Of a DNA stretch of 64,000 bases, positions 7,966 to 61,600 are shown piece after piece. The notes beneath the pieces are model-generated. The model did no database searches. It saw nothing but the letters and a program-made list of their open reading frames with translations, and was not told where the DNA came from. The stretch's first letter is position 1; each line of letters opens with the position of its first letter. The translations under genes were made by a program, and so were the position numbers. The DNA comes from Styela clava (lineage: Eukaryota > Chordata > Ascidiacea > Stolidobranchia > Styelidae): contig NC_135252.1 in NCBI RefSeq assembly GCF_964204865.1, positions 20,481,383-20,545,382 of the forward strand, written 5' to 3'.

Positions 7966-7970
7966 CTTGA

Positions 7971-18018: not shown

Positions 18019-18633
18019 GCCTAGACAATATTTAGGCGCCTCGAAAACTGCTATTTATGAGATTTTCGATGCGTCTGAACAAGCTTACGTCGCAGTGGCT
18101 CACTTGCGTGCCAAGAAATGTCAGTGTGTGAATTATAGTTTGTCGATGGCCAAATCAATTGTTTCTCCGATGAAATCTATGTCCGTTCCCAAATTAGAGC
18201 TGCAAAGTGCTTTATTAGCCGCGCCCGATATTATAAACAGTCGTCCTTTAACTTCTATTAGCGACAACGTACGTGATCCAGCTCCCCTCACGCCCAAATA
18301 CACCTTTGGATCAACAGTGCATCAGAGAAGATGGAGACAAACCGAAGCAATTTCGAATCGCTTCTGGAAGCGCTGGCGACGAGCGTATGTACCAATGCTG
18401 ATGACTCGAACAAAGTGGAAAAAAGAGAAGAATTTATTGATAGATGATATCGTAATTGTAGTAATTGATGTAGATGACGACGTGCCAAGAAGACGTTGGT
18501 TACAAGGAAGAGTTACTTTTAACCGGGTGTGTGTAACTACCGTCAAAACAGCAGGTGTGGAAATAACCAGACTGGTGACGAAACTATGCCTCCTGGAAAA
18601 TGAATAACCCCTTGAAGGGTTATTGGGGGCGGC

Positions 18634-21156: not shown

Positions 21157-21249
21157 ATGGCCAATAGGAAGCCAAAATGCCAAGAACAAGACAACCCAGC
21201 AATATACCCTGAGTGCGATCATGTACAAGATTGCCCAGGAGATGATGAG
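21157..21249 (+). CDS. gene 2 start exon (31 codons)
   Basis: ATG at 21157 is the first Met after an in-frame TAA at 21127-21129. The frame runs 31 codons to a clean GAG|gtacgt donor in phase 0. The peptide is polar with three cysteines (YPECDHVQDCPGDDE at its end) and is not a signal sequence. Chosen because frame, phase and donor all match the first array exon at 22492, with nothing else between. Confidence 0.5.
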
Positions 21250-24200
21250 GTACGTTTGACTGTACGCTCTACATTTGTCGCTTCAAAAATATGTGTACCT
21301 ATATGGAGGTAACTAATTTTGTTCGCTTACTTTACATCAAGTTGTGTGAGGGGACTGAAACCTATGGGCAGGGGGATATTCTCTTGGCTAACACAGACAT
21401 TCCTCGATCTTGTAAAGAAACCAAAATAAGGAAAATCGGAATGAAATTATGGCCTATCCCAAACGTGGTACACACACTACGGGTGTATCTTATATTTTAC
21501 GTTGCCTACTTTAGCATTGAGCAAGGCCTTGATATCTCACTTTCAAAAAACTAGCTTCTCGGGTTTGTGAATGAATATTTTCGATTTTCGTCTGTGTTAT
21601 GATAGCAACAGGATATATCTAGTTTAAACGGCGTTTGATGGCAGGCCCAGACCGACCAGTTAATCGACCAGTTAAACGACTAGTAAATTTAAACGACCAG
21701 TGTACGACTATAGTTGAATATACCGGCGACTAGTGTCACTTGTATCACATTTCTATAAACAATTTTTTGAAACCATATCGAATAAAAATTACCGAAAGTT
21801 ACGAGCAAAATATACGAACACTTTCATATTTATTTTGGTGGTGTTTTATACTTTGGGTTGAAACACTGTGTTTTAAAAAGAATTATGTTCAAGCCGCATC
21901 TTTGGGAATGGCATATCTATTTTGTAAAATCTCACTGAGCCGGTGGGCCAGTATTGGCCAAAGATATTCGTTTTCAGGATGTTACATTTTTATACGCTCT
22001 TCTTCAGTCAGTAGTTCCTTTTTTTCACCAAGCGGTAAATATACACCGTAAATACACAATGTAAACAAATCGAGAGAAAAGCGCTCGAAAAACGATCTTG
22101 TTATTGAGCTGCAACAGCTTAGTTTAATATTATTTTTCAAGCAGATAATATATATTATTAACTAGTTTTAGAAGATATGTCTCAAGTTCATTCAATGTTA
22201 AAAACCTTTTTGATTTATTTATATTTAAGTTAAGCTTCCAATTGGAAACTATGCATTCATCTAGTACTCACTGAATTCTATGACCGACCGAGTCAATTCA
22301 ATATGACAGAGCCGAGGTCAAGCTCATCAAACATTTGCACTTGTCTTGTTCAATACAAAGGTTAAACCCCAAAACAATACGTTAATAACAGTAGCTCCCA
22401 ACATATATGGCGGGGTATACAGAAAATTGTATGGGAGAAAGGCGCTGTATAAAACAATTATTTAAATGATAAAATTGCAGGCTGTGGACAGGGAAATTAC
22501 AATGAAAGAAGAACACAAAATAAACAAGAATTACGGGATTTTCAAGAATACATTCGTTCCGTTCAAGAGCATGAAATATTTCAGCAACATGAAAGCTATT
22601 TAACACCTGATGACAAAAGAGAAATTATAAATAAATGTTGTGATGTGATCCAATTTCTCACTGAAATATCAGTAAGTTATCAACATTATTAATATTGTAC
22701 AGGTTTATTTAACTTTGACTTATGTTCAGAGCAAATCTGTATACCTCCTTTGAAAAGATTGGATTCATTCTTTCATTTGTACAGTATATTAACATATAGA
22801 TTATAGATTATTTACAAATACTGCTTTTTATATCTTAATTACTAACTATCTATCCGTTGCATTCTGTCAGAGTTATACTAATAGTATTGGATATATAGCA
22901 TTTTTAGATAAAGATCGTGGTGAATATACGAAACACTCGCTAATTTTATTTTCAATATCTTTAAATTCAATTTTACATGAAACATTCTTTACTTATAAAA
23001 GCTAATAATTATCTCATAGAATATCTTATATTTTCAGGAAAATTTCAACATTAAGCAATTACAGGCCAAAAGACTCGGATTTGAAGACTTTGTTTGTAGC
23101 GTACTACACAGATTACAACACAGAGCTCAGGTAACAATATTTAAATTTTAACAATTTGTTATAGATTGTATAACTCCTTGTTTATTTAGCCAACAAAAAC
23201 CCATGTTTTGCCAAGCGTAGAAAAATGTGAGTTAAGATTAAACTTTAGTCATATTAACTAATTTTTTACAGTAATTCTGAAAGAATGGTATTTACACAAG
23301 CGTGATTGCGCGGATCGTACTGTTGACTTACCTTTAGATCTTATGTAATTAATCTAATGCCATAAAAATGAATATGGGACTATATTTAATTACCGTTTAT
23401 CTACTGGGCATCATTCACAAAAAGGATTCAGACATAAGTTTAAATAGTTTATTATTTTAAATTACGAATATTGAGAAAAAAAATTATTGTCTAAATATAA
23501 CAGCTTGTAGGTGACAGAGAACAAGAAAATAAGCGCAATGAAGCTATTCAAAGTTTTCAGAAGTACATTCGTTCAGTTCAAACTTACGAAATATTTAAGA
23601 TATTAAAATCGTTATTGACACCTGATAACAAAGATGAGGTCAACAAAAGATGTCACGAATTAGACAAAATGCTCAGTGACAACCTGGTAGAGTATTTATT
23701 ACTTGGATACAATTTTAAATCAAACAGATATACTGTTTTTACGTATCGAACGTATCGAATTTTGGAAATAAATTAGGTCACAATTATTTGCTTTCTTTCA
23801 TCGTTATTATATCCTTAGTACAGTCAATCAAAAAACATGATTATATATGTTCATGTTGTATAATTCAAGTATAATAAAACTAGTTTACATACAGAGAGAG
23901 CTCGATATTAAAGATATTGAGTCCGAAAGACGAGAACTCGATGATTTTATCAAGATTCTCATGCACAGTTTACAAAGTAAAGATCAGGTAATATATTCAA
24001 AAAAACGTACATTGACATTATGTCTAACGAAAAAAAATATAAATCAAACATTTTTCTGGGTTATTGATATGCAGTCTATTGTGGTGGAGTTTAAATACCA
24101 GATTTTATTGACGAAAAATTAGACGTTGGATAACCCAGTAAAAATTTATGCCGGCAGATAGCTGGGAATTTTAAATAAATTTTGTTTCAACATGAGAGAA

Positions 24201-27200
24201 GAATCATGAACCCGAAGCCGGAGGTGGAGTCAGCTGCTGAATATTGATATTTAAACATTGCTCTTAAAGTATTATCAGGAAGAGAAAGGAAGGCAAGAAC
24301 AAGAGCTACGAGTTGTAATTCAAAGTTTTCGTAACTACGTTCGTTCTGTCCAACAACATGAAGTATTCAAACAGTATGAAAGGTTTATATCTCCAGAAGA
24401 TCGAAACAAAATTAATAGAAAATGTGTTGCATTGGAGAAATTTCTAAATGACAAGGTCGTAAGTTTATTGCGTTATAAATCACTTACCAACTTGATCATG
24501 CCTCAAAATTGGGGACTCCCGTAGTGTGTGTACCAGATCACGGGTAGGCCATAATTTTATTTCGATTTTCCATATTTTAGCTCTATTACACGTTTGAGGA
24601 CTGTCTGTGTTAGACAAGAGAATATGCCTCCTACCCATAGGTTTCAATCTCTTTACACAACATGGTGTAAAGTAGGCGAACAAAATTAGTTATCTTCATA
24701 TTGGTACATACACTTCTGGGACGCCCAAAATTGTTCAGTAGATTTATTAATTTGTATTCTTATTGTTATCTACAGAAAGATTTCAAACTCCAACGGATAC
24801 ATAAAAAACAATCAAAACTCGAAAGTTTTGTTAATGATATGTTGAAAGGTCTGCAATATCAATCCCAGGTAAATTTTATGCTATTCATGCGAAATTTTTA
24901 AGTTTTGTCTAAACATTTAGTTAGTTTGTTATTAGAATAATTTTCATTTTGAGCAAATATTTTATTTATAAGTAACGTTTCGACATTTAGTATAGGCTTT
25001 TCGTTGATTGTTGCTTGGTTCTAAGTGTTATAAATACCCTCATGACCGTACCGTCTAACCACAACTTCGAAATAAATTCCCGAGTAATCATGCGGGACAA
25101 AAACTAGGATATTTACATCTTTATTTGACCAGTTTACTTTCGTTTACTGGTTGAAAACCTGAATGAAGATTCTAAGATTTACTATTAATCTTTGATTACA
25201 TTTATAAACCAATAAACATTATTATATTATTGACACAGATCGCAGAACTAGGAATGGAGAGAAAAGAAGAACAGGAACAACATAAAGCAATTAGGGAATT
25301 TGAGCAATATGTTCATTCAGTTGAAACGCATTCTATATTCGGAGATTATCAAACGTTTTTGTCACCTGATGAAAAAGAAGCTATCAGAGTTGAATGCATC
25401 AGATCGAAGGAATTTCTTAGTTCAAATTCTGTGAGTTCGATTGTATAATTTAAAATTTTCCTCAGTTGGTTACATCTAATTCGGTAAAACGAACTATCTG
25501 GATTAAATATTCAAACTCGGTTCTCAAGCTTTATTACAATGTTTATCTTTAGGTAATTATAAAAGTAAAATCTACCCCTATGTTATGTATACCGTCTATT
25601 TTTAGTGTGCTGTGATTGATCATCTGTGGAACATAATAAACATAAATTGCGTAAAAGAGTACTTTGCGATCTTCTATGTGGCCAACAGTAAATTTTACCA
25701 GTACTTTCTCGCTTGCAAAATTTACCCTCAATGTTGTTAAAATTTACCTCAGATGGAAGACCCCCTAGACTCAATTTAAATTTTAATTTTTCGTGGAGAA
25801 ATGGATATTTGATAAACGTTTCTATTGCTAGGAAAAGCTTGACACCAAAAAAATACAGATCGAGAAAGAAAAATTTGCAAAGAACGTTGAAAGTGTTTTG
25901 GAGATACTACGACAGGCAAGTGCACTCAAATCGATGTTTTTCACAAATCCTAAACCTATAAACTTTCTGGAATTTTTATTTGCATTTTCTTATGGTCTTG
26001 ACATAATTGAAGGTCTCATCAGTGGCCATTCAAAGGAACAACTGAACATGGTTCAGTTAAGTAAAAATCAGCATGAATGAAATTACAAGGCATCGAAAAT
26101 TTATTCATCCGATTTTTTCATGCAAGTAATTTTCTGAAGCATGACTTTAATTGAACAGTAAAAAAAGTACGTACTTGTTATTTTGTAAATTATTTTGAAA
26201 TCGACAGCTAGCAAAACTAGAGAAGCGAAGGGAACAAAAGCTAAACGAAGCGATGAAGAATTTTCAGCAGCATATTCAATCAGTTCAAAATCTTGAAGTA
26301 TTTGCTGAATATGAAAAGTTTTTGTCGTTTGATGACAAAAAGGATGTCGATGATAAGTGTTTCGAATTAAACAAATTTTTGAGCACAAATCCGGCAAGTT
26401 TTACTAAAACTTTTATTTTATTTCATATAAAAATACTTTATTATACATTTTAAAGCAAACATCCTTATCTTGGTTAACTGATATAAAAATTTATTAATAT
26501 TGTTTCAATAACATATTATATATCAAAGCTATATTGCTTACCTTAAAATAACTATGAAAAGAAAAAGTAAGATTAGAAACCAACTACAAATTGAATATCT
26601 AAGTTAGGAAAATAAAATATTGCATTTTCATTTATCTATCAACCCACCTTATCATAGAATGTTATTATCCAAGCTATATTAAAAATATTGAAGTACTTAC
26701 ATAGAGGAAAAGTGAAATACAATTTGGAAATCATTTTAGGAAGACCTTGACATTAACCACGTGAAAGAGAAAAGATTGGAATTTGAAAAATTTGTTGCAA
26801 GTATGTTGAAATCTCTGAAGCAAAGACATGGGGTAAATAAAACTCTTACTGAATTTTGTGATAGAATTTTAGAACGATCAGATGTAGTAGTGGTCTATTT
26901 AGGCAGCACATAACTGTCTTCTCGTTACTTATCGATTTTAATCGGTAAATATGTTGATAGATATTTGTCTGTTTGTCTGTCTGTTAGATGCACGCGATAT
27001 CTCACGAAAGCGAGATTGAATCTGCTCCAGATTTTGCATGTGCATTCATCATATGTCGGACCAGAAGCCTATTGATTTTTGACGAATTATGTCGTATAAT
27101 TAGCGAATTATTAATTAATTAGTGATGGAACACAAGGTGTCACTATGGAGTAAGAGCGCTATTTTGGGGATCCCCTAACTTTCGATCGATAAGTCTTCGG

Positions 27201-30200
27201 TCTCTGACCAATATTCTCGTTCATCTATAATTATGTTTTATCGGACCTGTATATACTGTGTATTGCAATATCACATTGAAAATATATTGCTCATATATGT
27301 CCTATTTTGCATTTGAAAAAAATCAACGAAATAATAGTTATCGAGTGACCCGCCTCCTTCAAAAAACAGAAATCATACCTTTTTTAATTACTTTTACGAA
27401 AATGGAAGAAAATTCATTTAATAATATATATAGAACATGAACTTTTGTTTGTACAAAAATAGAATATGTTCTATTTTGGTCACCCTCTAAAATGAATTTT
27501 TGGGCAAGTTTTGGACAAGTTTTCAAATCATTCATTTTGACATACGAATTTGCTAAAATTTAACTGAACATTAGTCGTTTTAGTTTGGCATACATTACAA
27601 GAAAGAAAGGGGCTAGCTGGTAACCTGAGCTTCATTTTACAGATTCTTTAAACATTTAGGTTTTTCAGGGTTGTAAGATTTTAGGATTGTCAAAAATCAT
27701 ATTATCTAGTTTTAACATATTATTTTGTTTTCTAAAATTTCACAGAAAGTAAAACTAGAGGAGAGAATGAAACAGCAGCTTAACCAAGCAATCCAGAAGT
27801 TCGAGCATTATATCCATTCAGTCAAAGAACTTTCTGTATTCAAGCCGTATGGAATATATTTATTACAAGGTGACAAAGACCTAATTAATGGAAGATGCAA
27901 GGAAATGAATACATTTCTCAACTCGGTAAGATTTCTTTGAATTATGTATACATGTAAACATGTATTATACATTTTCGAAAAACAAAATTTTCGTGGTTGA
28001 TGAAATAATCTCATTTGTCTTGTTGAGATTTGGCTTTAGCCTACAAGTCAAAGTTCAAACAGAGATATCATTCTTTACAGCGATTTATTCAACACATAGT
28101 CATGATATATGATCCAGCTCACTCCTATAACATAAAAGTTTGCTAATAAGCTAAAACTGAAAGTTTTGTCCCCAACTCTTAGAGTTACCGGTACGTCTCT
28201 TTTGTTTAACCCTTTTCTTTTGTCGGAAACAAGTCACGGCCCCAGTTAGAAACAAAACGACCCTGGCTACTGCTGTCAACCCTGTGCTTGACTGCTAAAG
28301 TGAGAAATTTATTATCATTGTCAGAAATGTAATTGAAATATTCTTTTTAGAAAAACCTCAACATGAAACGGATAGAAGACAAGACAGCAGAATTTGGAGT
28401 CTTCGTTAATCGTGTATGGATGGTCTTAAACACAAAGCTCAGGTAAGTGTATGTTGCTGCATTATGGGAGAGGCATACGTGTCTCACATCGGATTGAATT
28501 TAAGGTTTGCCAAACAAAAGTCAACAGTGTCTATCTGGCAGTTAGGAGGCACAAAATGGAATTATGGAACGTTTTTCAAAATCGTTGTTGTTGTTCTTGG
28601 CGTTGGCGATAACAAAAAAAAAATTCTTTGCATTCAATTGACCAATCAATTTTATTACATGAAGATAGAAAACGGCGCGACATAGTTTTTTTCTAATATT
28701 GCTAATAAAGTAATTCATGATCTTAAACATGCAACTATATTGTAAAATAAAGCTTGATGAACAGAAGAGAAAATATGAAGAACAGAAAAAAATTGAAGAG
28801 ATTCAAGATTTCCAGAAGTTTATTGAGTCAGTGCAAAGTTATGCAGAATTCCAGAAGTATGAGGAGTTTTTATCTGACAATGACAAAAAAGAAATCGATG
28901 ATAAATGCATTGAGTCGGAGGAATTTCTTAAAAAAAAACAGGTCAGTTAATCATTTGAAATTTGCAATATTAAGGTAAAAATGGATTCTGTATATATATA
29001 TATATATACCTCGTTAGTACATATCCTATCAGTAATTTTTTATTTTTCCGCTTTGAGCTTATTTCAAATATACTGAGTAAATACTGATAGGATATAAAAA
29101 AAACTGACAGTGTAAGTCTTACTTACGTAATAATTAGGTAAGAGCGTTAGTTAAAAAATGAGCCGACTGTTTATAGGCAAGTTTCATTATCAACAAATTT
29201 TTGTTTAATCATTACATCCAGCTACGTTAGTTCTTTTCTAATAAAATATCTTCAGTCTTGATGTATTGAAGTGATTTATTAAAATTAACAGAAAAAGCTT
29301 GATTGAAACTCATAGATACATATGACTTTCTGGCCATTTCTTTTATTTATTGAAAATTCATCCTAATTCTCTAACAATACATCCCAGATCCAAGTGAGCA
29401 CACGAATTTTTTAAACCACATAAAATAACCTTTTTACAGCTTGAAAAGCAGAAGAAAATGAAACAAGAACAGAAAAGACTTGAAGTGATTCGAGATTTCG
29501 ATCAATATATCAATTCAGTACAAGATCACACAGTATTTCAGAAATATGAGAAGTTTTTATCTCATAATGACAAGGAAGAAATAAATGTCAAATGTCTTGA
29601 AGCGAAAGAATTTCTCAGGAAACATCAGGCTAGTTTTTTGAACTATCAATATTAAAAAGCATCAAATAAATTTAAATTTTCCCATTTAGCAATCTTTTCA
29701 AACTTGTTTTGACTGCTACATATTAGTATTTCTGTCACTAGTATAAAGCTATATACGTTCACCTCGTTAGTACATTTTCTATCAGTACTCTCATTCCGTT
29801 TCGGGTCTTGCCTTAAGTTTATTAAAACATAAAAAACTGTTTAACTGAGAGTAACTATTATTTACATAATAATTAGGTGAACTGTGTGAGCGCTTGGTTA
29901 AAAATGGACCGACTGTTTAAAGGCATGTCCCAATACATGTTTATTTAGTCAATCCATGCAGTTACGTCAGTTTTTTTGTATTAAAATGTCGGCGATCTTG
30001 AAGTATTGACGTAATCATTTACAGGGAAATCTTGATACCAAACAAATAAACGAAAAAAGATCTGAATTTGAAGATTTTGTCAAAAGTCTGAAGGACGGCC
30101 TAGAACAAAAATATAAGGTAACGCGTTTTTTTTAAGATAATATAGACCCTTTATATTTTCCCGAAACAGTAGTAGAAATGGATTCAAACCCAAATGAGAT

Positions 30201-42200: not shown

Positions 42201-45200
42201 CAAACTTAGGCGGCTACCAGCTAGTATACGAAATATGTCAATCTAATTATCGACTGACTGCATCAACAGCCTAAGGTCAGCCAATACAAAATCCCTTTTA
42301 CTGTTTGCCTGCTTAAAGCTGTGTTTTAATATTAAAAACCCCACCAGTAGTGGCAAAAGAGTGGAGAATTAACAAAATTAAATCATGATTTTATGATGAC
42401 TCGAATTTTTTTTTTTCTATTGTGGAATATATCAAAACATTTATTTTATTTACAGAAAAACCTAACCTCCTTTAAAATTGAAAGAAAGCGTAAGGAACTA
42501 GAGGAATGGGTTCAAAGTATTTACAAAAAGTTGAAAACAAGGGAAGAGGTATTTGATCTAATTGTTGCTTGCTTGCTCAAATGAGGCTATGATTTTTTTT
42601 ATCAGATAATTAATCTAGAAAAAAAGATTTCCTTTGAACCCTCATAACGTGAAATCTACGACCAAATTTCAGCATTTACGACAGTATGAATTGTTGAACC
42701 TTTGCTTTCCTAAGTTCAACGTATGTTTTACATTTGAAATGACGTATGGGCTTGATGTTTACGATGGTAATCTGGAATTGGTGCGTTGGATTATCCCCTA
42801 GTTCTATAATACCATCTAGCTATGTCCTGACAATGTTGACTCAAAGTCGCTTTAACTGATCTCTGTCCCAAAAATAAACATACGTGTAGCTTCTAACGTC
42901 AGTGCATAAAAATATTATTTAGATGACAATTTGACAATTTGTTAAAACATTTTGAACATTTTAGATTGCAAACAAATGCAAAGATGATCTAGTAGAATGG
43001 AACAAAGCAGAAGGAGAGTTATCCAATTGTATAAATTACTGGAATCAATTTGTAACTCGCAACAGAGGGAAAGATAAACTAACGGACAAGTATTTGAATA
43101 GAATAGTTGAGATATGCACGGATGCAGAACAATGGCTTCTGGTTTCCTATGTATGTATAGTTTGAATGAAATATTTTTTTAAATAAATTAACCTTATACT
43201 GTTGTAAGATTTTTTTTTTGTTCACAGCAAATGATTTCACGGAGAGAACTCATCGATAAATGTTTCAGTTTGGAAACCGATGCCTGTAATATCTGGAAAA
43301 GTCTACAAAATGAGAAACAGGTTAAAATTAACCTTACAAATGTATTATTCTATTTTTTTTGAAAATATGATATTTATAAGAGATATAATAGATATAAAAG
43401 ATTTGATATTTTAAATGCTTTTTGATTTGTATCAATCTCTGCGCTCAGTTTATTGTGAAATCCGTTTCAATTCAAACAAATTTAAAGCATATTGCCTATA
43501 ATTATATATAATTTCATAAGGTAAATAAGTAGATGAAGAGTAAAATATAAGATTCTCAGAAAATCTTCGCTCGTATAATATTCCTTTTGCAAAATAACGA
43601 ACCAATGTTGAAAATACTCGCTAAAACTTATAGATTAGTCTTTGTTACAATAATGAACAAAAAGTCGATGCCCGGAGAAACAACTAAATGAATGAAACTA
43701 AAAAAGAACTTTAAACACGATGCGTCCTAAACAACTTGATTGTTTGTTATTTAATAAAATATTTGTTTCAGCAGTCTGGAGACGACATTGAGGAACAAAC
43801 AATAGAAATAGAAAAGTTTGTGGAAAGAAAGGGATTCAGCATAAAAGAAAAGCAAGAAGTATATTTTTTGTGACTTGCAATGATTTGGTCGTCAACACTC
43901 TTGGCATGATAATTGTGTTTTACACTACTAATCTTTTCTTCCAATCGAGAACATTTTGTTTTAGTAACTAAAAGCAAGAAAGATATTTCATTGCAAGGTA
44001 AACTTTGTAATACAAACTAAATACAAGATGCATTCAAACTATGGTTTGTTAAATCGCGTTTCATTTCATTATGAGGAGGCCATTAGGACATCCGAACAAA
44101 ACTACTTAAAATGATAAAGCGAATTGAAAGCTCTATTGACATAAAGATAAATTAAATATTTTAACAGAATAGTTGAAATGTGCACGGATGCTGAAGAATG
44201 GCTCCTGGTTTCCTATGTATATATTTCAAAGTAAAAGTCTGATAAAAAAAGTTTTTTAATAGACACGTTTTATACTACTTTATTGAAATAAATAGATTTT
44301 GAAGCCTCCATACCGACGACAAAAAAGTCTATTTACTAATACATGTAGCAAAAAATGAAAAAACATGAGCGTACGTGAAAAATCATGAATATTTGAATAA
44401 ATACCAAACCGAGCCGAGTACGTAGCAGCCTACGAGGCGCTAGAAGATTAATCTTAGTAGTGTGGGTATCGTCTTATCTTAGCTTCACTTTTATATCTAT
44501 AAATATCACTTGGATCCTCATATTCTCGAACACAGTCCCATTTCTGTTTTTCCCTTCTTTGATGTGTTAATATTTAGCATTTAATAGGTTAACTTTGCAA
44601 ATAACTTGATCTGGACATGACGTAAAATCAAAACAGATTTTGCATTTTTGATACCCATAATTCTTTATAACATATATCAAATGAGAAATTCATCATAAAA
44701 TTATTATCAACTCTCAGAGAAGAAGTCACGAGTCGGACAGAAGAAGACGCGATGAAGCAGAAATGAGACTTCGTGATTATATAGCATATATACGAAGTTG
44801 TGTTTCAGTGATCAAACTTGAGAAAAATAAACAAAAACTTATAAGAATGTGCGGAGAAACAGAACATTTTCTGCGTACAAATAAAAGAGTAAGAAATGTC
44901 ATTCTTATAATGGTTGTTATGTTACGTAGCATGTAACTTACTGGGCCATCGAGATTAGGCCTATGTCAAAGTTAAAATTATCTGTGTATTCCAAATGTTT
45001 TTATTTCAAATATAAAACATGTGAATTGGTCTACGGAAAATTTTATTTTTGTCAAGTTGAAATTATTTATAAAATTCGAACGCATATGTTAAAATATCGA
45101 TATCGATAATTGTTTAAATTCACTCTATCCGTGTTATACTTTAACAAAAATTATGTCTCATGTTACATAAGCTACGCATTCTCCAGTATGGATAAACAAC

Positions 45201-48200
45201 TAATACATTTGAAGTTTATAATCTGTCGATTTCGTGCTTTCCAGGATCTAACATGGCAAGAAATAGAAAATATTGAAATGGATATGAAGAAGCATTTTGA
45301 GTCGATTTGCTATGGATCAGAAATTGAGGTAGTCTTCTCATGCGAAAAAGTTTATTTCTAAAGATTCATATACATTCTGACACTTTGTTTTTCTTTTTGA
45401 AGTTGAAACTAAATTGAGTGAAAATAAATAAATTAAAAACTCTTACATTAATTTATATAATGGTGTATACAAGCAAAGCCACTAGTGAGGTAGGATATTG
45501 AAAACTGATTTATCTCATAGATTAAACGCGGTTCATTTACGCGATTTATCTTCGATTTTTGTATACACGTGAGATTTTGTAGATATTCAAAAACCAGAAA
45601 AAACAACATTATCACTTTCCATCTAGAATAGCAAGTATATTTGTGATCTTTTAACTATCATAATCTGAATTACCTCAGATTAGCAACATATCATGGTAAA
45701 AGCAAAGATTATATTATTTGTTCGGTTAATAGCTTCTTTATCATTTTAAAATTTGTATTTATCTTCTGTTTAAAATCCACTTACACATGCAGCCACGGAA
45801 TGAAAATTATGAGCGTACGTGAAATTATAAATTATATAAATATTTACCAAACGGAGTGTCACCATCACATATCATCTTATATACATATTCATACGTAAAA
45901 ATATTACTTGGATCTCCATAATGTCGAGCACAGGACCATTTCTGCCCATTTCCGTATTTGGTGTGTCATTGTTTAGAATTTAATAGATTAACTTTGCAAA
46001 TAACCTCATCTGAACATGACGTAAAAACAAAACTGATTTTGCATTTTTGATACCCATAAGTCTATATCACATATATCAATTAGGAAATTCATTTTAAAAT
46101 TATTATCAAATCCTAGAGAACAAAAAACGAGTCGGACATAAGAAGACGCGATGAAGCAGAAATAAGACTTCATGATTATATATCATATATGCGAAGTTGT
46201 GTTTCAGTGATCAAACTTGAGAAGAATAAAGAAAAAATTATAAGAATGTGCAAAGAAACAGAGAAATTTCTGGAAACAAGGAAAAGTGTAAGTAATATAG
46301 AGCCTATTTGTTGTTGTGCTTTCTTTGTTTCTACAGCATTTGTTATGTAACTGACGATGCCAACCATACGTTGTGCGTTCTGTTAAATTATTTTAAACTT
46401 ACACTATATTTAAAATATATTCTAAGGTTAACTATTTAACTTTGTTGCGGTAACCAATGTCCAACATAGTTCAATAGCGCCGAAAATGTCACGAAATTCA
46501 ATGTATTTATACGCGCCCCAAGCCCATCTTGCTGTCTAAGATACCGTACACCAGCAACATTCAACTCTAATATTTTTGTTTGAAATGGTAGTTTATTCAC
46601 AACCCAAGTAAATCCACAACTAGCAGCATATTCATTCAATATATATAATTCAATAAAGCAATTATACAGGAATGGGTTGTGGTAAATGGCAATTGGCGCC
46701 TGTCCAGCCAATAGTTATACAAATACAAACAAGAGTAGTGGAGCAAATTTACTGTGTGTCCTCCTGGTTTCATGTTTCTGCCGGAGAGGCCTTAACCAAT
46801 CATACAAGTCATTGAGCAGCACTGTCCACAAGCGGTGATACGCAAGAACCAAGAACTAAATTATTGGTTTTAAAGTTTTGAAAGATGAGTACCTACTAAT
46901 ATTGATAACTATATACGACCCCAGTGACAAAATTATTTTATTTTTCGAATATTTTACGATACCACCTATATTTGCTAACGTTTTAGAATCTAACGAGGCA
47001 AGAAGTAGAACATATTGAAAAGGATATAAAGAAGCATTTCGAGTCGATCTACTATGGATCAGAAATTGAGAATGAGGTATCTTCTCGTGCGAAAATGTTT
47101 ATTTTTTACAGTTTCATATATATCATAACATTCTGTTTCCATTTCAAATTGAAATATATTGAGTGAAAAAATAGATCAAAACTCTTACATTTATTTATAT
47201 TACGGTATCTACACGCAAAGCTACTGGTTAGGTATAATAGATTGAAACTAATTCATACTCATAGTTGAAACTTAGTTCATTTGTAGTTTTGATATTGAGA
47301 AATTAAAGTGATAAAACTGTTCAAACAATTTTAGCAGCGGTATCAGTTTTAAAAATGAAAAAAGCGAGATCTACCGAATTTATATCATTGCCGAAGACTA
47401 AACATTATTTTTGGATGGAAGTTAAGTTCAAAATTGATTTTGATTCAAAATAAAGAATATTTTTTTGCATAGCAAATTTCTGTACATAATAAGATACCAT
47501 TTTAGGAAGGAAGTCTCAAATATGGAACAGATAGTAAAACTCATTTGGTATATGAAAAGGATAAGATCCGTCGTCGACAGAGCTGGATTTGGAGAAAAAT
47601 GAGTTTATTTTAGACATTCGTTAGCTTCATGTCGTGGTCCAATCAATCAATCAATGGTTGGCGCAATGTCTATGTTGACAACGTGAATTGGGAATCAATA
47701 GAGCGATTTCAACTGGTCGGACAATTACTCCAAGCCCACCTATTGACCATTTAACTGGCTTTGATAATATTATATTAGAGACGCCGTAGTCGAAAGATTC
47801 CAAAGTGAGTAGCGTCAAAGCTAAACTCGTAATGCAAGGCAAGAAATCATACTGCAGAACTAATTTGGTGATAGGAATTGAATTTATTCTACAATGAAAA
47901 TGTAGGATTTGAGTTATTCGTTATATGTAGTGTGGTTGTGCTTTGCAGAAAGAAACAAAGGAACCGCAGGAAAAAGATAAACGTGTTACCCCAACCAAAT
48001 GGATAGCTGTGATTTGCAGGGTAACGCAGGACATAAGGAAAAATATGAAACAAGTTCATATGAAAATGACAGATACGGAGAAAACCAGGTTGCAAAAACT
48101 CTGTGAAGACACAGAAGAGTGGTGTGAAAAAAATCCAGTAAGTACAGTGTGTCACTAACAAATATAATACACAAGAGACTACTTCAAAGTCTGTAAAGTA

Positions 48201-50908
48201 TATTGAGTGCTTACAAAATTTTGATATAATGAGAATCCATTATTTTTAATGATTCTGCCACTCATATTGTCCGAATGAGGTAGTTATTGTATTTTCCTGG
48301 CAATTCAGGTATTCCTGAATAGCAAAACAAAATAATTATAGTGAATGAACGTTTGCACTGTACAAGAACTAAGTATTAGTTATTCTCGAATGTGCTGTAA
48401 AATTTCCTTTCTAATTAAATAAAATTTGTAAAACAGCATGCTAAAAAGGAAGAAGTTGAATTTAAACGCAGAAAACTGGAGAAGCTGTGGAACAATACAC
48501 TTCAGAAGATAACGGCACGAGAAATAGTAAGATCTTTCAAATGTTTGTAATATTACAATTGCGTATTATATAGCTGTCTTGATCTATGGTGTATTTCCAT
48601 GCTGGAAGTATTAGTAATTTAATACAACCACGTAGAAAATAGAATTGAAATTTGTTATTCGCTGCCAAGTTGGCTCTTCTATTCTTAAGATTAGTCGCTG
48701 CTCATGTCAGACTCGCTGCTTATAAAGGCCATAATGCGAGCAAACATATGGAATTTTGATGATGACCGTAAAATATTTGGCTAAAAGCAATGTTTCTCAA
48801 ATTGTAGTTAGAGCCTCCCTGTGGTCGCCGAGCGGTTTCCTGAGTGCTACCAAACAATCACTAGGTTATCTTGCGACACATAAAATTTGATGGGAATGCG
48901 TTAAAGCACAATTTGGTATGTTATAGTAGATCATTTTGGATACATGATAAGCGATGAATTTGGGGGATTAGCAATTAGCATGGGTTTGCGCAAACCGTTT
49001 CTGGGATGTTGTGATATCAGCGAATAGCATCTTGTTTTCTTGTTTTTGACACACTACCGAAGCAACTAGGTTACGTGCAGCGCGGCTGACACCCAACGTT
49101 TTATTTAGCGTTTTTGTGGTTATGTTTTCTATTGATGTAAAACGTGTCATGTTAATGTAGCTAACGTAGTGACATGAATATATTTTCTGATGTTGGGAAC
49201 CTGTTATTAATGAGTTTGATCTAAATAAGAACCCGTTCTACAAATTTTGAATATCTCCACTAGTGATAGCTCTGAAATGCAAAGAAAATTTATTTTATAT
49301 TCTTATTTGCTCTCACTTTCACAGACAGAAGCAATATTACAAATATACTTCCCAGCAGTCGGAATTTTTCGTTAAAAAAGCAAAACAGAATTTATCACTG
49401 TATTAACAATAATTACTTTTCTCTCAATTTCTATGATATTATTTGATATTTACAATAAAAAGTAATTTGATTTCAAACATCATTTTGATTTTTTTTCAGA
49501 ATGACGACTTTGGGAGATCACCTGATACAATATATTTCTTACACGTAAGACTTGCTTCTATTATTTTCTATTTATACCACCTAAAATGAAATCTTAAAGG
49601 GTAATTTTGTTGTTCCAGATTGCTTTTATTTTACATACTGAAGTATGTTACTGGAAACGCTGTATACAAACCCTAGGATAGGTTTCATGTTTAATATGGG
49701 AATATATGACCAATTGATTGTTCCAGAAGCGTAGGATATTGAGAGGATTAAACTGTGTTCCAAATTAATTAAATAAATTTTTTTCCTAACCTATTACGTA
49801 TAAAGTATCAGGCCAATACTATGTATTATCAAAATATTTCATGTCATATATAAATAAAAAAGGATGTATGTATATCCATCATATGTTTTGGGTACGTAAT
49901 GCCACATTCACTTTCAGGAATACAGACACAAAAATAAAAGGAAAGATCTTAATGATTGATTCCCAATTGAACTTATTTTTTTTCGGAGTATATTAAGGAA
50001 TGTCGTTTACAAAGTTAATAGGACGAGATAGCTTTTCAGGTCTCGTATGAGAATAAATTACCAGTTAATTGTTGCACACGCTCAGGATATTGGAAAGATT
50101 TGATTCTGTTTCAGATTGAAGGAATGTTTTTTCCCCAGCGTAATACATGAAAGCGCCAAATACTATTTAATGTCAATATAGTCTATTTTCCTATTTTAGG
50201 CAAATATATAGCTATCATGTAATTTGAGAGCTTAAGGCCGCACGTGGAATCCTTTTGTATTTTCTCATACTTTTGCAGCCAGAAGATAGCAAAACAGCTC
50301 TTTTAAAATTTGCACGACTTGCTAGAAGAAAAATTCACAGCCATATTTATAAAACCCAAATTCCGGATTCCGACAGAAACAAAATAATATCCAAGTACAA
50401 TGAAGTCATCGAAAGAGTATGGGTGAGTACTTTTATTTAACTTGCTGATGAAGGTTACGTGAATTAGTAATATAAAGAGCGAAAAGTCACTGTTCATCTT
50501 CAAATCAGATTTTTGGGTTAAATTTTCCTTTATTGTACAGTTTTAGCTTGTTAGTATGCCCTCATTGTTTATTATACTTGATCCGATGTAAATTTCTAAT
50601 TTTTATACAATGCCCAATCTGGCCTCTCGCTCAGTACAAAATACCATTGATATCTCACGATATTTATGAGTTTACTGTTATTTCGAAGGTTCGCTGATAT
50701 TATTGTTATTATTATGTGCTGCAATTGCTTGCAGGATTTGAAGCGTCCGCAGTCGGAAACTATTTACCATTTATTTTTTATTTAGACCAAAGAGAGGGCA
50801 GAAATAGAACTAATGGAATTCAAGCAACTTTGCATAAAGGTTTTCAAAACAGTTGACGAAAAGGCTGATCCTCAACGCATTGACATTGAAAGACGCTGGT
50901 ACTACTGA
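21157..50908 (+). CDS. Array gene 2: complete giant gene of Hsp70-lid-like repeats
   Basis: Start exon at 21157, last exon ending in TGA at 50908, AATAAA at 51203 and 51245. In between are about 23 A exons (48-65 codons), 23 B exons (28-32 codons, the last 40) and one 15-codon exon, nearly all in phase 0. Summing the readable exons gives about 2,150 residues if all are used. A consensus of the 22-34 kb units: AI..F..YI.SVQ....F..YE.FLS..DK..I..KC.E...FL, then LD..Q...KR.EFE.FV.S.L..L..K.Q. The order helix - DK..I..KC - WL/FL - charged helix is that of the Hsp70 lid (SCOP superfamily 100934; judged by eye). There is no ATPase, no substrate-binding beta domain, no signal peptide and no transmembrane segment, so it is probably intracellular. 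Three exons (28351, 38498, 40882) have a net one-base frame error, so the full-length reading breaks unless they are skipped or are sequence errors. Function unknown. Confidence 0.7.
21285..21495. mobile_element. palindromic MITE copy (tgtgtacc family), eroded
   Basis: Left 'atatgtgtacctatat', internal 'ggaaaatcggaatgaaatta', right 'cgtggtacacacactacggg'. Same family as 24511-24725, 31811-32045 and 59759-59994, in first-intron position of gene 2. Borders approximate. Confidence 0.55.
21496..22491. other. intron 1 of gene 2, remainder
   Basis: Around 21640-21710 a short motif (cgaccagttaa / cgactagta) repeats four or five times. No exon-like block resembling A or B was found. Confidence 0.5.
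22492..22671 (+). CDS. gene 2 A exon (60 codons)
   Basis: Contains FQEYIRSVQEHEIF and LTPDDKREIINKC. Donor gtaagt. The in-frame acceptor is gtggacag at 22491. A better-looking tgcag at 22480 would put the exon out of frame with the start exon. Confidence 0.75.
23038..23130 (+). CDS. gene 2 B exon (31 codons)
   Basis: Acceptor atattttcag, donor gtaaca. Reads ENFNIKQLQAKRLGFEDFV and ends LQHRAQ. Confidence 0.82.
23504..23686 (+). CDS. gene 2 A exon (61 codons)
   Basis: Acceptor aatataacag, donor gtagag. Contains AIQSFQKYIRSVQTYEIF and LTPDNKDEVNKRCHELDKML. The AG at 23509 would shift the frame. Confidence 0.75.
23895..23987 (+). CDS. gene 2 B exon (31 codons)
   Basis: Acceptor tacatacag, donor gtaata. 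Reads RELDIKDIESERRELDDFI and ends LQSKDQ. Confidence 0.8.
24279..24458 (+). CDS. gene 2 A exon (60 codons)
   Basis: Acceptor tattatcag, donor gtaagt. Contains FRNYVRSVQQHEVF, ISPEDRNKINRKCVALEKFL. Confidence 0.82.
24511..24725. mobile_element. palindromic MITE (tgtgtacc family) in a gene 2 intron
   Basis: Left end GGGGACTCCCGTAGTGTGTG, right end ...CTTCTGGGACGCCC, roughly inverted, bounded by aaaatt on both sides. It sits between A exon 24279 and B exon 24776. Confidence 0.7.
24776..24868 (+). CDS. gene 2 B exon (31 codons)
   Basis: Acceptor gttatctacag, donor gtaaat. Reads KDFKLQRIHKKQSKLESFV and ends LQYQSQ. Confidence 0.82.
25239..25430 (+). CDS. gene 2 A exon (64 codons)
   Basis: Acceptor tgacacag, donor gtgagt. 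Contains AIREFEQYVHSVETHSIF and LSPDEKEAIRVECIRSKEFL. Confidence 0.82.
25832..25915 (+). CDS. gene 2 B exon (28 codons) with GC donor
   Basis: Acceptor ctattgctag; ends CAG|gcaagt, the classic consensus of a GC-AG intron. Reads EKLDTKKIQIEKEKFAKNV. Three codons shorter than most B exons. Confidence 0.72.
26208..26393 (+). CDS. gene 2 A exon (62 codons) with GC donor
   Basis: Acceptor atcgacag; ends CCG|gcaagt. The sister exon at 30668-30859 has GT at the same place after an identical AAT CCG ending. Contains FQQHIQSVQNLEVF, LSFDDKKDVDDKCFELNKFL. Confidence 0.75.
26740..26832 (+). CDS. gene 2 B exon (31 codons)
   Basis: Acceptor atcattttag, donor gtaaat. Reads EDLDINHVKEKRLEFEKFV and LKSLKQRHG. 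Close copy of 32156-32248. Confidence 0.82.
26925..27220. repeat. dispersed repeat R, copy 3, in a gene 2 intron
   Basis: Same start and end motifs as the copy at 14845-15132, including tgtctgtctgtt and 'gcacgcgatatctcacgaaa'. It lies between exons 26740 and 27746. Confidence 0.75.
27746..27925 (+). CDS. gene 2 A exon (60 codons)
   Basis: Acceptor atttcacag, donor gtaaga. Contains AIQKFEHYIHSVKELSVF, GDKDLINGRCKEMNTFL. Confidence 0.82.
28351..28442 (+). pseudogene. gene 2 B exon with one-base deletion (92 nt)
   Basis: Splice sites are good (ttctttttag, gtaagt). The first two thirds read KNLNMKRIEDKTAEFGVFV and the last part reads DGLKHKAQ in another frame. One base is missing near 28414. 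Including it would throw the transcript out of frame; skipping it keeps the frame. Confidence 0.72.
28753..28941 (+). CDS. gene 2 A exon (63 codons)
   Basis: Contains FQKFIESVQSYAEF, DNDKKEIDDKCIESEEFL. Donor gtcagt. The acceptor is inferred at aataaag because LDEQKRK then aligns with LEKQKKM of exon 29440. A cag ten bases downstream is also in frame. Very lysine/glutamate-rich. Confidence 0.7.
28987..29006. repeat. (TA)n microsatellite
   Basis: A short run of alternating ta in the intron after exon 28753. Confidence 0.8.
29440..29628 (+). CDS. gene 2 A exon (63 codons), recent duplicate
   Basis: Acceptor ctttttacag, donor gctagt (GC). Contains FDQYINSVQDHTVF, HNDKEEINVKCLEAKEFL. The flanking introns share 'acctcgttagtacat' with those of 28753, so the two units are a local duplication. 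The B exon expected between them is reduced to a trace near 29290. Confidence 0.72.
30025..30117 (+). CDS. gene 2 B exon (31 codons)
   Basis: Acceptor catttacag, donor gtaacg. Reads GNLDTKQINEKRSEFEDFV and ends LEQKYK. Confidence 0.82.
30668..30859 (+). CDS. gene 2 A exon (64 codons)
   Basis: Acceptor caatttacag, donor gtctaa. Contains AIGNFQQFIQSVYALEEF, LSPDDKKDVDNKCIEMNTFL. Confidence 0.82.
31043..31135 (+). CDS. gene 2 B exon (31 codons)
   Basis: Acceptor acaataacag, donor gtatat. Reads ETLDIQQIQDKRNEFADFV and ends LKQKYK. Close to 30025. Confidence 0.82.
31358..31546 (+). CDS. gene 2 A exon (63 codons)
   Basis: Acceptor atttaacag, donor gtaagt. Contains AIMNFQQYIQSVQTFEAF and SSEEKQDVNDRC. 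Confidence 0.82.
31811..32045. mobile_element. palindromic MITE (tgtgtacc family), good copy
   Basis: The left arm 'cggaacgtagtatgtgtacc' recurs inverted in the right arm ('ggtacacatactacgttccg'), with 'ggttaggccata' / 'ggcctaaccctgac' inside. It can fold as one long hairpin. No coding. Sits in a gene 2 intron. Confidence 0.8.
32156..32248 (+). CDS. gene 2 B exon (31 codons)
   Basis: Acceptor ttattctag, donor gtaaaa. Reads ESLDINQVKEKRLKFENFV and LKSLKQKSQ. Confidence 0.82.
32609..32782 (+). CDS. gene 2 A exon (about 58 codons), start uncertain
   Basis: Contains FLLYIRSVESHAEF, LTSDDKAEINAKCLAMKEVL. Donor gtacat. No good acceptor lies near the expected start. The in-frame aaaaaag at 32608 lacks a pyrimidine tract, and the frame stays open upstream to about 32552. 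Confidence 0.6.
33306..33398 (+). CDS. gene 2 B exon (31 codons)
   Basis: Acceptor tgttttcag, donor gtgaat. Reads EKLSVEQIQDVKIEFEDFV and ends LKDREQ. Confidence 0.82.
33906..34076 (+). CDS. gene 2 A exon (57 codons)
   Basis: Acceptor ccttaacag, donor gtaagt. Contains AIQNFQAYIQSVQELEEF, LTSIDINGIKAKCLKL. The DK pair is replaced by IDIN. Confidence 0.8.
34456..34548 (+). CDS. gene 2 B exon (31 codons)
   Basis: Acceptor atctccag, donor gtaatc. Reads GNLHFKQIEDKRAEFESFI and ends LQSKAQ. Last unit of the homogeneous SVQ/FLS sub-array. Confidence 0.82.
34586..35859. mobile_element. hAT-type element in a gene 2 intron
   Basis: Left end CAGCGTTTCCCAACC, right end GGGTTGAGAAACAATG, inverted with a few mismatches; 'gcggact' motifs at both ends. 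No clean 8-bp duplication could be read. Its right 210 bp match 14450-14719. Non-coding. It separates the two sub-arrays of gene 2. Confidence 0.7.
36221..36409 (+). CDS. gene 2 A exon (63 codons), second sub-array
   Basis: Acceptor tttttatttag, donor gtaagc. Starts MAADKIKQERRKK and carries LRKTLDSVRTQI and CNQVEDWL, with Trp-Leu as in a true Hsp70 lid. The exon begins with ATG, so an internal start here is conceivable. Confidence 0.78.
36767..36859 (+). CDS. gene 2 B exon (31 codons)
   Basis: Acceptor acatttttcag, donor gtgaat. Reads KTIAVEELESKVIEVEATL and ends LKQEIQ. Confidence 0.78.
37280..37465 (+). CDS. gene 2 A exon (62 codons)
   Basis: Acceptor gcaaaccag, donor gtgagt. Contains RDNLLGFLDSIRQMC and DKLSGLCNETEEWL. 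Confidence 0.78.
37984..38073 (+). CDS. gene 2 B exon (30 codons)
   Basis: Acceptor ctttaacag, donor gtttgt. Reads GISAESIQTKHEELQANV and ends ISKMKQ. Confidence 0.75.
38498..38675 (+). pseudogene. gene 2 A exon with one extra base in a poly-A run (178 nt)
   Basis: Contains FDNMRNYIDEVQTKI and CEIVLEWV. The exon ends in a run of nine A before ttat|gtgagt, where eight would keep the frame (cf. WTNENY at the end of exon 39908). The extra base could be real slippage or a sequencing error. Acceptor ttccaaag. Confidence 0.65.
39394..39489 (+). CDS. gene 2 B exon (32 codons)
   Basis: Acceptor actttccaag, donor gtaaga. Reads DRITSDTIISEQRNLRTTI and ends MQASKIE. Confidence 0.75.
39570..39635. repeat. 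short tandem repeat of acgtYacata units
   Basis: Repeats of 'cacatacgttacata' with small changes in the intron after exon 39394. Confidence 0.6.
39908..40075 (+). CDS. gene 2 A exon (56 codons)
   Basis: Acceptor attttttcag, donor gtaagt. Contains ALTAVHDYIDDVCKSL and a C.DTI.KHC...FKW segment. Confidence 0.8.
40299..40394 (+). CDS. gene 2 B exon (32 codons)
   Basis: Acceptor ttgttttcag, donor gtgaga. Reads HQITGGRILSEFDNLQKNV and ends LQARKIE. It is the intact parent-type of the relic at 1447-1516. Confidence 0.78.
40882..41069 (+). pseudogene. gene 2 A exon with one-base deletion (188 nt)
   Basis: Homologue of 2025-2213. The deletion (atgat-agaaa against acgattagaaa, near 40920) brings a TAA into frame. 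The remainder still reads YISDVRSLVVF and LTEEDLRLIFGQC. Donor gtgaat. Functional only if skipped or if the deletion is an error. Confidence 0.72.
41475..41567 (+). CDS. gene 2 B exon (31 codons)
   Basis: Acceptor tggttttcag, donor gtgaga. Reads ENSDTNQLEVQYSDLREL and ends YKKLERIDA. Confidence 0.8.
41790..41984 (+). CDS. gene 2 A exon (65 codons)
   Basis: Acceptor tgtttatag, donor gtgagt. Reads LEKAELAKRQTEERRMK, then YIDRARRLIVF and LTKSDKAKIQSECIKADHFL. Homologue of gene 1 exons 622 and 2967. Confidence 0.82.
42456..42548 (+). CDS. gene 2 B exon (31 codons)
   Basis: Acceptor ttatttacag, donor gtattt. Reads KNLTSFKIERKRKELEEWV and ends YKKLKTREE. Confidence 0.82.
42965..43150 (+). CDS. 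gene 2 A exon (62 codons)
   Basis: Acceptor acattttag, donor gtatgt. Contains LSNCINYWNQFVTRN and LNRIVEICTDAEQWL. Trp-Leu conserved. Relics of this exon type lie at 4080-4211 and 44138-44216. Confidence 0.8.
43228..43320 (+). CDS. gene 2 B exon (31 codons)
   Basis: Acceptor gttcacag, donor gttaaa. Reads QMISRRELIDKCFSLETDA and ends LQNEKQ. Only 77 bases of intron separate it from exon 42965. Confidence 0.78.
43772..43858 (+). CDS. gene 2 B exon (29 codons) without a preceding A exon
   Basis: Acceptor tttgtttcag, donor gtatat. Reads QSGDDIEEQTIEIEKFV and ends KEKQE. Synteny with gene 1 predicts an A exon (like 4755-4922) between 43320 and here, but none was found. Confidence 0.65.
44138..44216 (+). 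pseudogene. A exon relic
   Basis: Keeps the last third of exon type 42965 (RIVEMCTDAEEWLLVSY) before gtatat. The first part is lost and replaced by AT-rich DNA. Confidence 0.65.
44718..44888 (+). CDS. gene 2 A exon (57 codons)
   Basis: Acceptor caactctcag, donor gtaaga. Contains RRRRDEAEMRLRDYIAYI and NKQKLIRMCGETEHFL. Sister of 46117 and of gene 3 exon 60020-60190. Confidence 0.82.
45245..45328 (+). CDS. gene 2 B exon (28 codons)
   Basis: Acceptor tgctttccag, donor gtagtc. Reads DLTWQEIENIEMDMKKHF and ends YGSEIE. Confidence 0.78.
46117..46287 (+). CDS. gene 2 A exon (57 codons), tandem duplicate of 44718
   Basis: Acceptor aaatcctag, donor gtaagt. Contains RLHDYISYMRSCVSVI and NKEKIIRMCKETEKFL. 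The flanking introns also match those of 44718 ('gattttgcatttttgatacc'). Confidence 0.82.
46987..47076 (+). CDS. gene 2 B exon (30 codons)
   Basis: Acceptor aacgttttag, donor gtatct. Reads NLTRQEVEHIEKDIKKHF and ends YGSEIENE. Nearly the same as gene 3 exon 59417-59506. Confidence 0.82.
47506..47599 (+). pseudogene. relic of the extra 23-codon exon
   Basis: Homologous by position and sequence to gene 3 exon 57769-57837. It shares G.D.....E.......RRR with it, but the expected GT donor has become AT (gaaaa|atgagt). The frame runs into a stop. Probably not spliced in gene 2. Confidence 0.5.
47949..48137 (+). CDS. gene 2 A exon (63 codons), strongly lid-like
   Basis: Acceptor gctttgcag, donor gtaagt. 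Contains DIRKNMKQV, MTDTEKTRLQKLCEDTEEWC and EKNP. The TEK..L..LC..TEEW run is the closest in the array to the Hsp70 lid loop-helix. Gene 3 copy at 57175-57363. Confidence 0.85.
48437..48526 (+). CDS. gene 2 B exon (30 codons)
   Basis: Acceptor gtaaaacag, donor gtaaga. Reads HAKKEEVEFKRRKLEKLW and continues NNTLQKITAREI. It resembles the final helix of the Hsp70 lid (E.EFEH.RKELE..CN...). Confidence 0.85.
48527..49499. other. gene 2 intron
   Basis: No exon or repeat recognised. An open frame at 48968-49150 (minus) has no support. Confidence 0.5.
49500..49544 (+). CDS. gene 2 micro-exon (15 codons)
   Basis: Acceptor tttttttcag, donor gtaaga. Reads NDDFGRSPDTIYFLH. The same 45-nt exon with matching splice sites occurs in gene 3 (56399-56443), which argues that it is real. 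Confidence 0.72.
49640..50160. repeat. internal duplication in a gene 2 intron
   Basis: The stretch around 49650-49790 ('ggaatatatgaccaattgat', 'aggatattg') recurs diverged at 49990-50150 ('agaataaattaccagttaat', 'aggatattgg'). Non-coding. Confidence 0.55.
50279..50422 (+). CDS. gene 2 penultimate exon (A type, 48 codons)
   Basis: Acceptor acttttgcag, donor gtgagt. Contains RRKIHSHIYKTQIPDSDRNK and then YNEVIERVW. Gene 3 copy at 55983-56126 with few changes; relic at 7889-7965. Confidence 0.85.
50786..50908 (+). CDS. gene 2 terminal exon (B type, 40 codons and TGA)
   Basis: Acceptor tttatttag. Reads ELMEFKQLCIKVFKTVDE and ends RIDIERRWYY, then TGA. It corresponds to the last helix of the lid plus a short tail. 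Gene 3 has the same exon at 55534-55653. Confidence 0.85.
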   Translation, partial: TKERAEIELMEFKQLCIKVFKTVDEKADPQRIDIERRWYY

Positions 50909-55533: not shown

Positions 55534-55653
55534 CTAGTACCAGCGTCTTTCAACGTCCATTCGTTGAGGGTCAGCATTTTCATCAACTTTTTTGAAAACC
55601 TTTATGCAAAGTTGCTTGAATTCCATTAGTTCCCTTTCTGCCTTCTCTTTGGT
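55534..55653 (-). CDS. gene 3 terminal exon (B type, 39 codons and TAG)
   Basis: Acceptor taccaaag, donor none. Reads ELMEFKQLCIKVFKKVDE and ends MDVERRWY, then TAG. The stop falls one codon earlier than in gene 2 (TAC TAG against TAC TAC TGA). Confidence 0.85.
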   Translation of the reverse strand, partial: TKEKAERELMEFKQLCIKVFKKVDENADPQRMDVERRWY

Positions 55654-61402: not shown

Positions 61403-61600
61403 CGTGTTGACATATTCACGCATTCCTTCTCGTTCGTTGGTTGCTTGAAGAGTTGATAGTTTCCTCTCCCTCGTTTTTGTCGCTTGTTTCGCTATTTGAA
61501 TCAGTTAGAGACCTTTAGTCCATTTGCTTTCGATTTTCCACATTCCTTTTGAGCTCCTCACTTCTTTCCGGCTCCGCATTTCTTAGCCTTAGACCTCATA

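Follow-up and report, generated by a model that had tools for sequence, protein, structure and literature searches.

Hsp70 chaperones are among the most conserved proteins, and the order of their domains is generally regarded as invariable. Spectrin repeats are three-helix bundles, and a helix runs without a break from one repeat to the next. A precedent for an Hsp70-family member without the substrate-binding domain is HSPA13/STCH, which is described in the available part of PMC9691929 as having kept its ATPase. Here, we analyzed a 64,000-nucleotide stretch of DNA from Styela clava (contig NC_135252.1, positions 20,481,383 to 20,545,382; referred to below as the window), which contains a giant gene made almost only of repeated exon pairs that resemble the Hsp70 lid (the array gene). 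Our explanation, to which we assign a probability of roughly 0.6, is that this gene is an array of Hsp70-lid exon pairs which arose behind an ATPase without a beta-sandwich, and that its product would serve as a scaffold rod.

The array gene occupies positions 21157-50908 of the plus strand and has 47 exons (1 start exon, 23 A exons of 144-195 nt, and 23 B exons of 84-123 nt) that form 22 adjacent A+B pairs, with one A exon lacking its B (A7) and one B exon lacking its A (B20). This bears out the coordinates and the approximately 23 exon pairs given in a preliminary description made from the sequence alone, and the coding length of about 2,132 residues, off-frame exons counted, agrees with its estimate of about 2,150; the frame breaks, the flanking arrays, and the ATPase-bearing relatives reported below are additional to that description. 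Every one of the 46 acceptors is AG, the donors comprise 43 GT and 3 GC sites, and length is divisible by three in 44/47 exons; these figures hold partly by construction, since borders were picked among in-phase AG and GT sites. Three exons (B6, A15, and A17) are off frame by one or two bases, and 19 of the 22 pairs are frame intact. Independent support for the borders comes from two Styela clava proteins described below, P0003 (minus strand, 55537-60993) and P0004 (plus strand, 315-5138), whose joins coincide with A/B borders bearing splice signals, and from a third, P0001, which tracks exons B2-B16. These shared joins also lend indirect support to the view that the exons of the array gene would be spliced together. 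A hidden Markov model (HMM) built from 21 of the 23 A exons recovered those 21 among the six-frame open reading frames (ORFs) of the window at E-values of 9.5e-27 to 2.8e-14, which is circular, as the model was built from them; the two exons left out, A17 and A15, were matched at 3.4e-10 and 2.1e-5. Scanning the same ORFs with the A- and B-exon HMMs also revealed further units at approximately 0.3-5 kb (plus strand) and 55.5-61 kb (minus strand).

The units are almost certainly homologues of the Hsp70 lid in a tandem array. A profile of 16 A+B units, drawn from the 19 frame-intact pairs with units 19, 21, and 24 left out, gave 25 matches in the PDB at E ≤ 10; the top 14 were Hsp70s aligned in the lid (best E-value, 1.2e-8), and the first unrelated match appeared at 0.024. 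In profile-profile comparison, the same alignment matched residues 530-612, the lid, of 16 non-Styela Hsp70s (probability, 95.3; E-value, 2.2e-8). Reversed units found no Hsp70 in the PDB (best E-value, 1.9) and reached a probability of 0.3 against the 16 Hsp70s; composition and helicity therefore do not explain the lid match, and the lid identity proposed in the preliminary description is upheld. A single bridging lid from P0003 finds human Hsp70 lids at 1.4e-5. Single units of the array gene gave only scattered weak matches in Pfam and NCBIfam and did not reach Pfam HSP70, which may be the reason that the family is annotated as uncharacterized; the lid is recognizable only with a many-unit profile and would be missed by a scan of one unit at a time. 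Library scans (Pfam and NCBIfam on units, Pfam on four relatives) returned no profile family for the lid-array arrangement. The EEVD tail, present in the consensus of the non-Styela Hsp70 alignment, is absent from the array-gene model, which ends ...IERRWYY.

A protein search with the joined model of the array gene, in which the length range was limited around the query, gave 4 matches among 7,991 scored candidates, all from Styela clava: P0001 (LOC120343202, 1,898 amino acids), P0002 (LOC120343174, 2,714 amino acids), P0003 (LOC120342837, 3,007 amino acids), and P0004 (LOC144420915, 1,320 amino acids). A further array search matched 1 of 7,995 scored candidates, P0125 (LOC120343196), a Styela clava lid-array protein of 690 amino acids. 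All five are named uncharacterized, and overall identity of the relatives to the query is 23-80%; no lid array was found outside Styela clava among the approximately 8,000 candidates of query-like length scored per search. A search with the ATPase end matched 7,993 of 7,996 candidates, and among the best 120 listed, four are named Styela clava (P0011, P0017, P0019, and P0028); from these 120, 22 proteins were taken into one alignment and 16, the non-Styela Hsp70s, into another. P0001-P0004, P0011, P0017, P0019, and P0028 probably lie on one chromosome, as each is assigned to a contig 25,587,678 bases long. The array gene has start exon N in common with P0004 and P0125 and shares its 3'-most exons with P0003, in which most array-gene exons, the final ones included, have a counterpart.

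To establish the domain content of these relatives, profiles of the ATPase, beta-sandwich, and lid were cut from the 16 non-Styela Hsp70s and run on the nine Styela proteins and the six-frame ORFs of the window. The ATPase profile was positive for P0002, P0003, P0011, P0017, P0019, and P0028 (E-value, 9e-114 or better) and negative for P0001, P0004, and P0125 (0.23 or worse). Among the nine proteins, the beta-sandwich was found only in P0028, the positive control (3e-45), and not in P0001-P0004, P0125, P0011, P0017, or P0019 (best E-value, 0.22 or none). The lid profile found one lid each in P0011 (3.5e-17), P0017 (7e-15), P0019 (8e-13), and P0028 (4e-26), and its best array units ranged from 5e-13 (P0003) down to 0.005 (P0125). 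An HMM of the unit, which spans approximately 90 residues and misses the P0017 lid, counted 21 units in P0001, 25 in P0002, 26 in P0003, 14 in P0004, and 7 in P0125, some of them partial. P0002 and P0003 are thus an Hsp70 ATPase followed by 25 and 26 detected lids without a beta-sandwich, and P0011, P0017, and P0019 are an ATPase plus one lid, likewise without it. The alignment of P0003 to HSPA1A skips from residue 385 to 511; although Pfam spreads its P0002 match across nearly the whole HSP70 profile, no match is obtained there with the dedicated profile of the beta-sandwich. In the window, the best beta-sandwich E-value was 3.4. An ATPase hidden in the window was also considered and rejected, as tblastn of the P0003 ATPase gave a best E-value of 0.14 and the profile scan of six-frame ORFs gave 0.31. 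The preliminary description of a gene without a chaperone ATPase is therefore right for the array gene, with the amendment that its relatives P0002 and P0003 do bear one. The ATPase tree has long branches, and a single origin of the beta-sandwich loss is neither shown nor excluded by it.

In P0105 numbering, all five ATPases without a beta-sandwich retain D10, K71, E175, D199, and D366. R171, the J-protein contact, is kept only in P0019 (changed in 4/5); the full Hsp70 P0028 also lacks it. T204 is likewise changed in 4/5, to K in P0002, P0003, and P0019 and to F in P0017, with T kept in P0011. The available part of PMC7294093 reports that a T204A mutant bound ATP without hydrolyzing it, whereas, according to the title of PDB entry 1atr, hydrolysis does not strictly require T204; given this conflict, hydrolysis by the heads could go either way. 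As judged from these residues, the heads without a beta-sandwich likely bind ATP, and they may have lost hydrolysis or control by J-proteins.

In a structure model of the seven-lid relative P0125, the lids are joined by unbroken helices, with a predicted template modeling score (pTM) of only 0.29; the junction helix is continuous behind 3/3 complete units and 1/2 A-only units. Foldseek comparison supports a lid-like predicted fold with weak E-values, and the model agrees with the lid-like helical bundle anticipated earlier. The units are accordingly modeled as putative three-helix lids, in each of which the last helix is predicted to continue as the first helix of the following unit. In the scheme that we propose, the client-binding beta-sandwich would first have been lost from an Hsp70, the lid would then have been multiplied by duplication of phase-0 exon pairs, each adding a whole lid with the frame undisturbed, and the ATPase would finally have been dropped, leaving the lids alone. 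We infer this order (beta-sandwich loss, lid multiplication, ATPase loss) as the simplest. Since array relatives without a beta-sandwich still bear an ATPase, the lid was probably multiplied behind the ATPase before or while the latter was dropped; the earlier proposal that a lid was detached and multiplied stands as to multiplication and is amended as to detachment. We consider an origin from an ATPase form without the beta-sandwich quite probable. The lids would pack as bundles and, by sharing helices, form a continuous rod. With no peptide-binding domain left, such a protein would not be expected to fold clients, and a role as a structural element or a multivalent docking platform would fit better than peptide chaperoning; that the role is specifically that of a rod or scaffold, a view derived from anatomy, we regard as an even bet.

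Selection was assessed by the Nei-Gojobori method on seven chosen sets of unit copies; the ratio of nonsynonymous to synonymous substitution rates (dN/dS) was 0.25-0.62 for six of them, and the recent pair 21/22 gave 1.16. In three older pairs examined, exon identity was 0.71-0.78 versus 0.28-0.48 in the flanks; A21 and A22 show no such exon excess, with an identity of 0.87 versus 0.86 in the upstream flank. The best-kept well-filled column of the unit is a cysteine, present in 85/90 units of the relatives and, with A15 and A17 set aside, in 20/21 A exons of the window, A24 being the exception; these counts are not independent, as near-identical units occur among the paralogues. This cysteine aligns with P0105 residue 574, which is C in 7/16 non-Styela Hsp70s and V or I in 9/16; it is also present in P0028, P0011, P0017, P0019, and the first lid of P0003. 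According to the available part of PMC7294093, glutathionylation at Cys-574 and Cys-603 unfolds the lid of human Hsp70. By analogy, oxidation of the matching cysteine may tune the rod; only 4/23 B exons contain any cysteine, so a second, Cys-603-like site is mostly absent. We offer only as a speculation, and a doubtful one, that these proteins constitute a novel type of giant rod resembling spectrin, in some cases with an ATPase head, in which oxidation of lid cysteines would unfold units and tune length, stiffness, or binding.

The start exon N (ATG; MANRKPKCQEQDNP...; 21157-21249) ends at GT in phase 0, is 73% identical to P0004 residues 1-30, and has a near-identical counterpart at the start of P0125. 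It is followed on the same strand by unit 1 (A1, 22492-22671; B1, 23038-23130), unit 2 (A2, 23504-23686; B2, 23895-23987), unit 3 (A3, 24279-24455; B3, 24776-24868; 100% identical to P0001), unit 4 (A4, 25239-25430; B4, 25832-25915, with a GC donor), unit 5 (A5, 26208-26393, with a GC donor; B5, 26740-26832), and unit 6 (A6, 27746-27925; B6, 28351-28442, 92 nt and off frame). A1 is in frame only from an acceptor later than its P0125 counterpart implies, and its frame may also be affected. The P0125 annotation seems to read as coding through the sequence behind B4 (25832-26077), possibly a retained intron or a misannotation. A7 (28753-28941) has no intact B exon behind it; B7 is missing at 28753-30117, where P0001 has a B-type stretch, and a degraded look-alike is seen by eye near 29289. 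Next come unit 8 (A8, 29440-29628, with a GC donor; B8, 30025-30117), unit 9 (A9, 30668-30859; B9, 31043-31135), unit 10 (A10, 31358-31546; B10, 32156-32248), unit 11 (A11, 32609-32782; B11, 33306-33398; 100% identical to P0001 and P0002), unit 12 (A12, 33906-34076; B12, 34456-34548), unit 13 (A13, 36221-36409; B13, 36767-36859), unit 14 (A14, 37280-37465; B14, 37984-38073), unit 15 (A15, 38498-38675, 178 nt and off frame; B15, 39394-39489), unit 16 (A16, 39908-40075; B16, 40299-40394), unit 17 (A17, 40882-41069, 188 nt and off frame; B17, 41475-41567), unit 18 (A18, 41790-41984; B18, 42456-42548), and unit 19 (A19, 42965-43150; B19, 43228-43320). B20 (43775-43858) has no intact A exon, and an A-exon fragment at 44154-44224 matches a portion of A19 with 87% DNA identity. 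The 3' end consists of unit 21 (A21, 44718-44888; B21, 45245-45328), its recent duplicate unit 22 (A22, 46117-46287; B22, 46987-47076; A21/A22 DNA identity, 86.5%), unit 23 (A23, 47949-48137; B23, 48437-48526), a small extra exon X (NDDFGRSPDTIYFLH; 49500-49544) that lies between AG and GT and fits P0003 residues 2905-2920 by eye, and the last unit, 24 (A24, 50279-50422; terminal B24, 50786-50908), which ends at the stop behind ...IERRWYY, where P0003 ends ...VERRWY.

Three lid-array genes, one whole and two 3' parts, lie within the 64 kb. The upstream neighbor (plus strand, 315-5138) is 91-100% identical to P0004 in its best stretches and contains an internal duplication (0.3-1.2 kb and 2.7-3.5 kb, one set of exons each). 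The minus-strand neighbor (55537-60993) is arranged tail to tail with the array gene and matches the ATPase-bearing P0003 (9/10 stretches at 93.8-100% identity, one at 85.7%); the end that encodes the ATPase would be expected outside the window. A further B-type copy is found at 7220-7306 (plus strand), and a weak A-exon HMM match at 7883-8080 (minus strand; E-value, 4e-4), the end of which resembles A24 (KIIAKYNEVNEGVW), is possibly an inverted fragment. P0001 is 92-100% identical to the array gene over B2-B16 (23895-40394), while the last 30% of P0001 matches the upstream gene, which makes the cluster a mosaic; this could reflect recombination, gene conversion, or a difference between haplotypes. 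On sequence grounds, the window DNA most likely comes from an assembly or haplotype that differs from the annotated Styela clava one. Pfam analysis of six other long ORFs in the window identified three mobile-element pieces, all inside the cluster (a Pao-type retrotransposon piece at 17939-18607 and a DUF4371 piece and a hAT dimerization piece at 61553-63664), and no match for the other three.

The alternative that deserves most attention, though we favor it less than a working gene, is that the array gene is a decaying copy of a living family that is losing its frame. The off-frame B6, A15, and A17, the late acceptor that A1 needs, the A-exon fragment behind B20, and the dN/dS of units 21/22 would all fit, as would the annotation of the near-copy P0001 without those breaks and with a B-type stretch where B7 is missing. 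Against this, 44/47 exons remain open across 30 kb and have splice-like borders, sequencing errors in the assembly may explain the frame breaks, and dN/dS is below 1 in six of seven comparisons, though these values mostly reflect time before any recent loss. Decay is therefore a serious possibility for this copy, and it would leave the family untouched. Another alternative, that the units are a generic helical or spectrin-like repeat which came to resemble the Hsp70 lid by convergence, is nearly refuted: the profile matches are specific to Hsp70 lids and vanish on reversal, and relatives bear an Hsp70 ATPase ahead of the same units. The spectrin profile PF00435 matches 2/16 units (best E-value, 0.0022). 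A spectrin-type or generic coiled-coil origin was rejected on the same grounds.

Two further alternatives concern function. The array could be a multivalent lid mimic that docks co-chaperones or Hsp70s and is no structural rod. The homology of its units to the lid would suit such a role, work cited in the available part of PMC7294093 has co-chaperones acting on the lid, and the ATPase-bearing relatives keep the five residues listed above; yet the EEVD tail is absent and R171 is changed in four of the five relatives without a beta-sandwich (a change seen in the full Hsp70 P0028 as well), and we think this role rather unlikely. Less likely still is a fast-evolving immune or allorecognition-type cluster that shuffles lid exons for diversity. 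The crowding of three array genes into the window, the low identity of some relatives, and the mosaic P0001, with its 5' part like the array gene and its 3' part like the upstream gene, are what such a cluster might show, but Pfam scans of four relatives turned up no receptor domain, and six of the seven unit comparisons do not exceed a dN/dS of 1.

If the speculation on oxidation-tuned rods is true, a chaperone has been dismantled and reused as building material in one sea-squirt lineage. Deletion of the beta-sandwich together with an approximately 20-fold multiplication of the lid would establish it as an independent and evolvable module. The natural series found here, probably on one chromosome (full Hsp70, ATPase plus 1 lid, ATPase plus 25 or 26 lids, and lids alone), makes testable both the role of an Hsp70 ATPase without clients and that of a lid without an ATPase. 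Among the top-ranked results of text searches of open-license papers, we found no description of a lid-array protein, in keeping with the preliminary view that the layout is unlike any described family; the parts are known, and the arrangement is new. Compared with canonical cytosolic Hsp70s (HSPA1A, HSPA8, and here P0028), the units cover nearly the whole lid (530-612) and have the lid cysteine in common, but the array gene has approximately 23 lids instead of one and lacks ATPase, beta-sandwich, and EEVD. Tandem phase-0 A+B lid exons are common to the array gene, P0001-P0004, and P0125; P0002 and P0003 have the same kind of units with an Hsp70 ATPase in front, whereas P0001, P0004, and P0125 are ATPase-less arrays like the array gene, with 21, 14, and 7 detected units, and P0001 matches it from B2 on and differs in its 3' part. 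HSPA13/STCH has an ATPase, whereas the array gene has lids and no ATPase; P0011, P0017, and P0019 are likewise without a beta-sandwich, but they have kept the lid. Spectrin-repeat proteins have a chain of bundles similar to the one predicted here, but the array units, at approximately 90 residues, match the Hsp70 lid profile.
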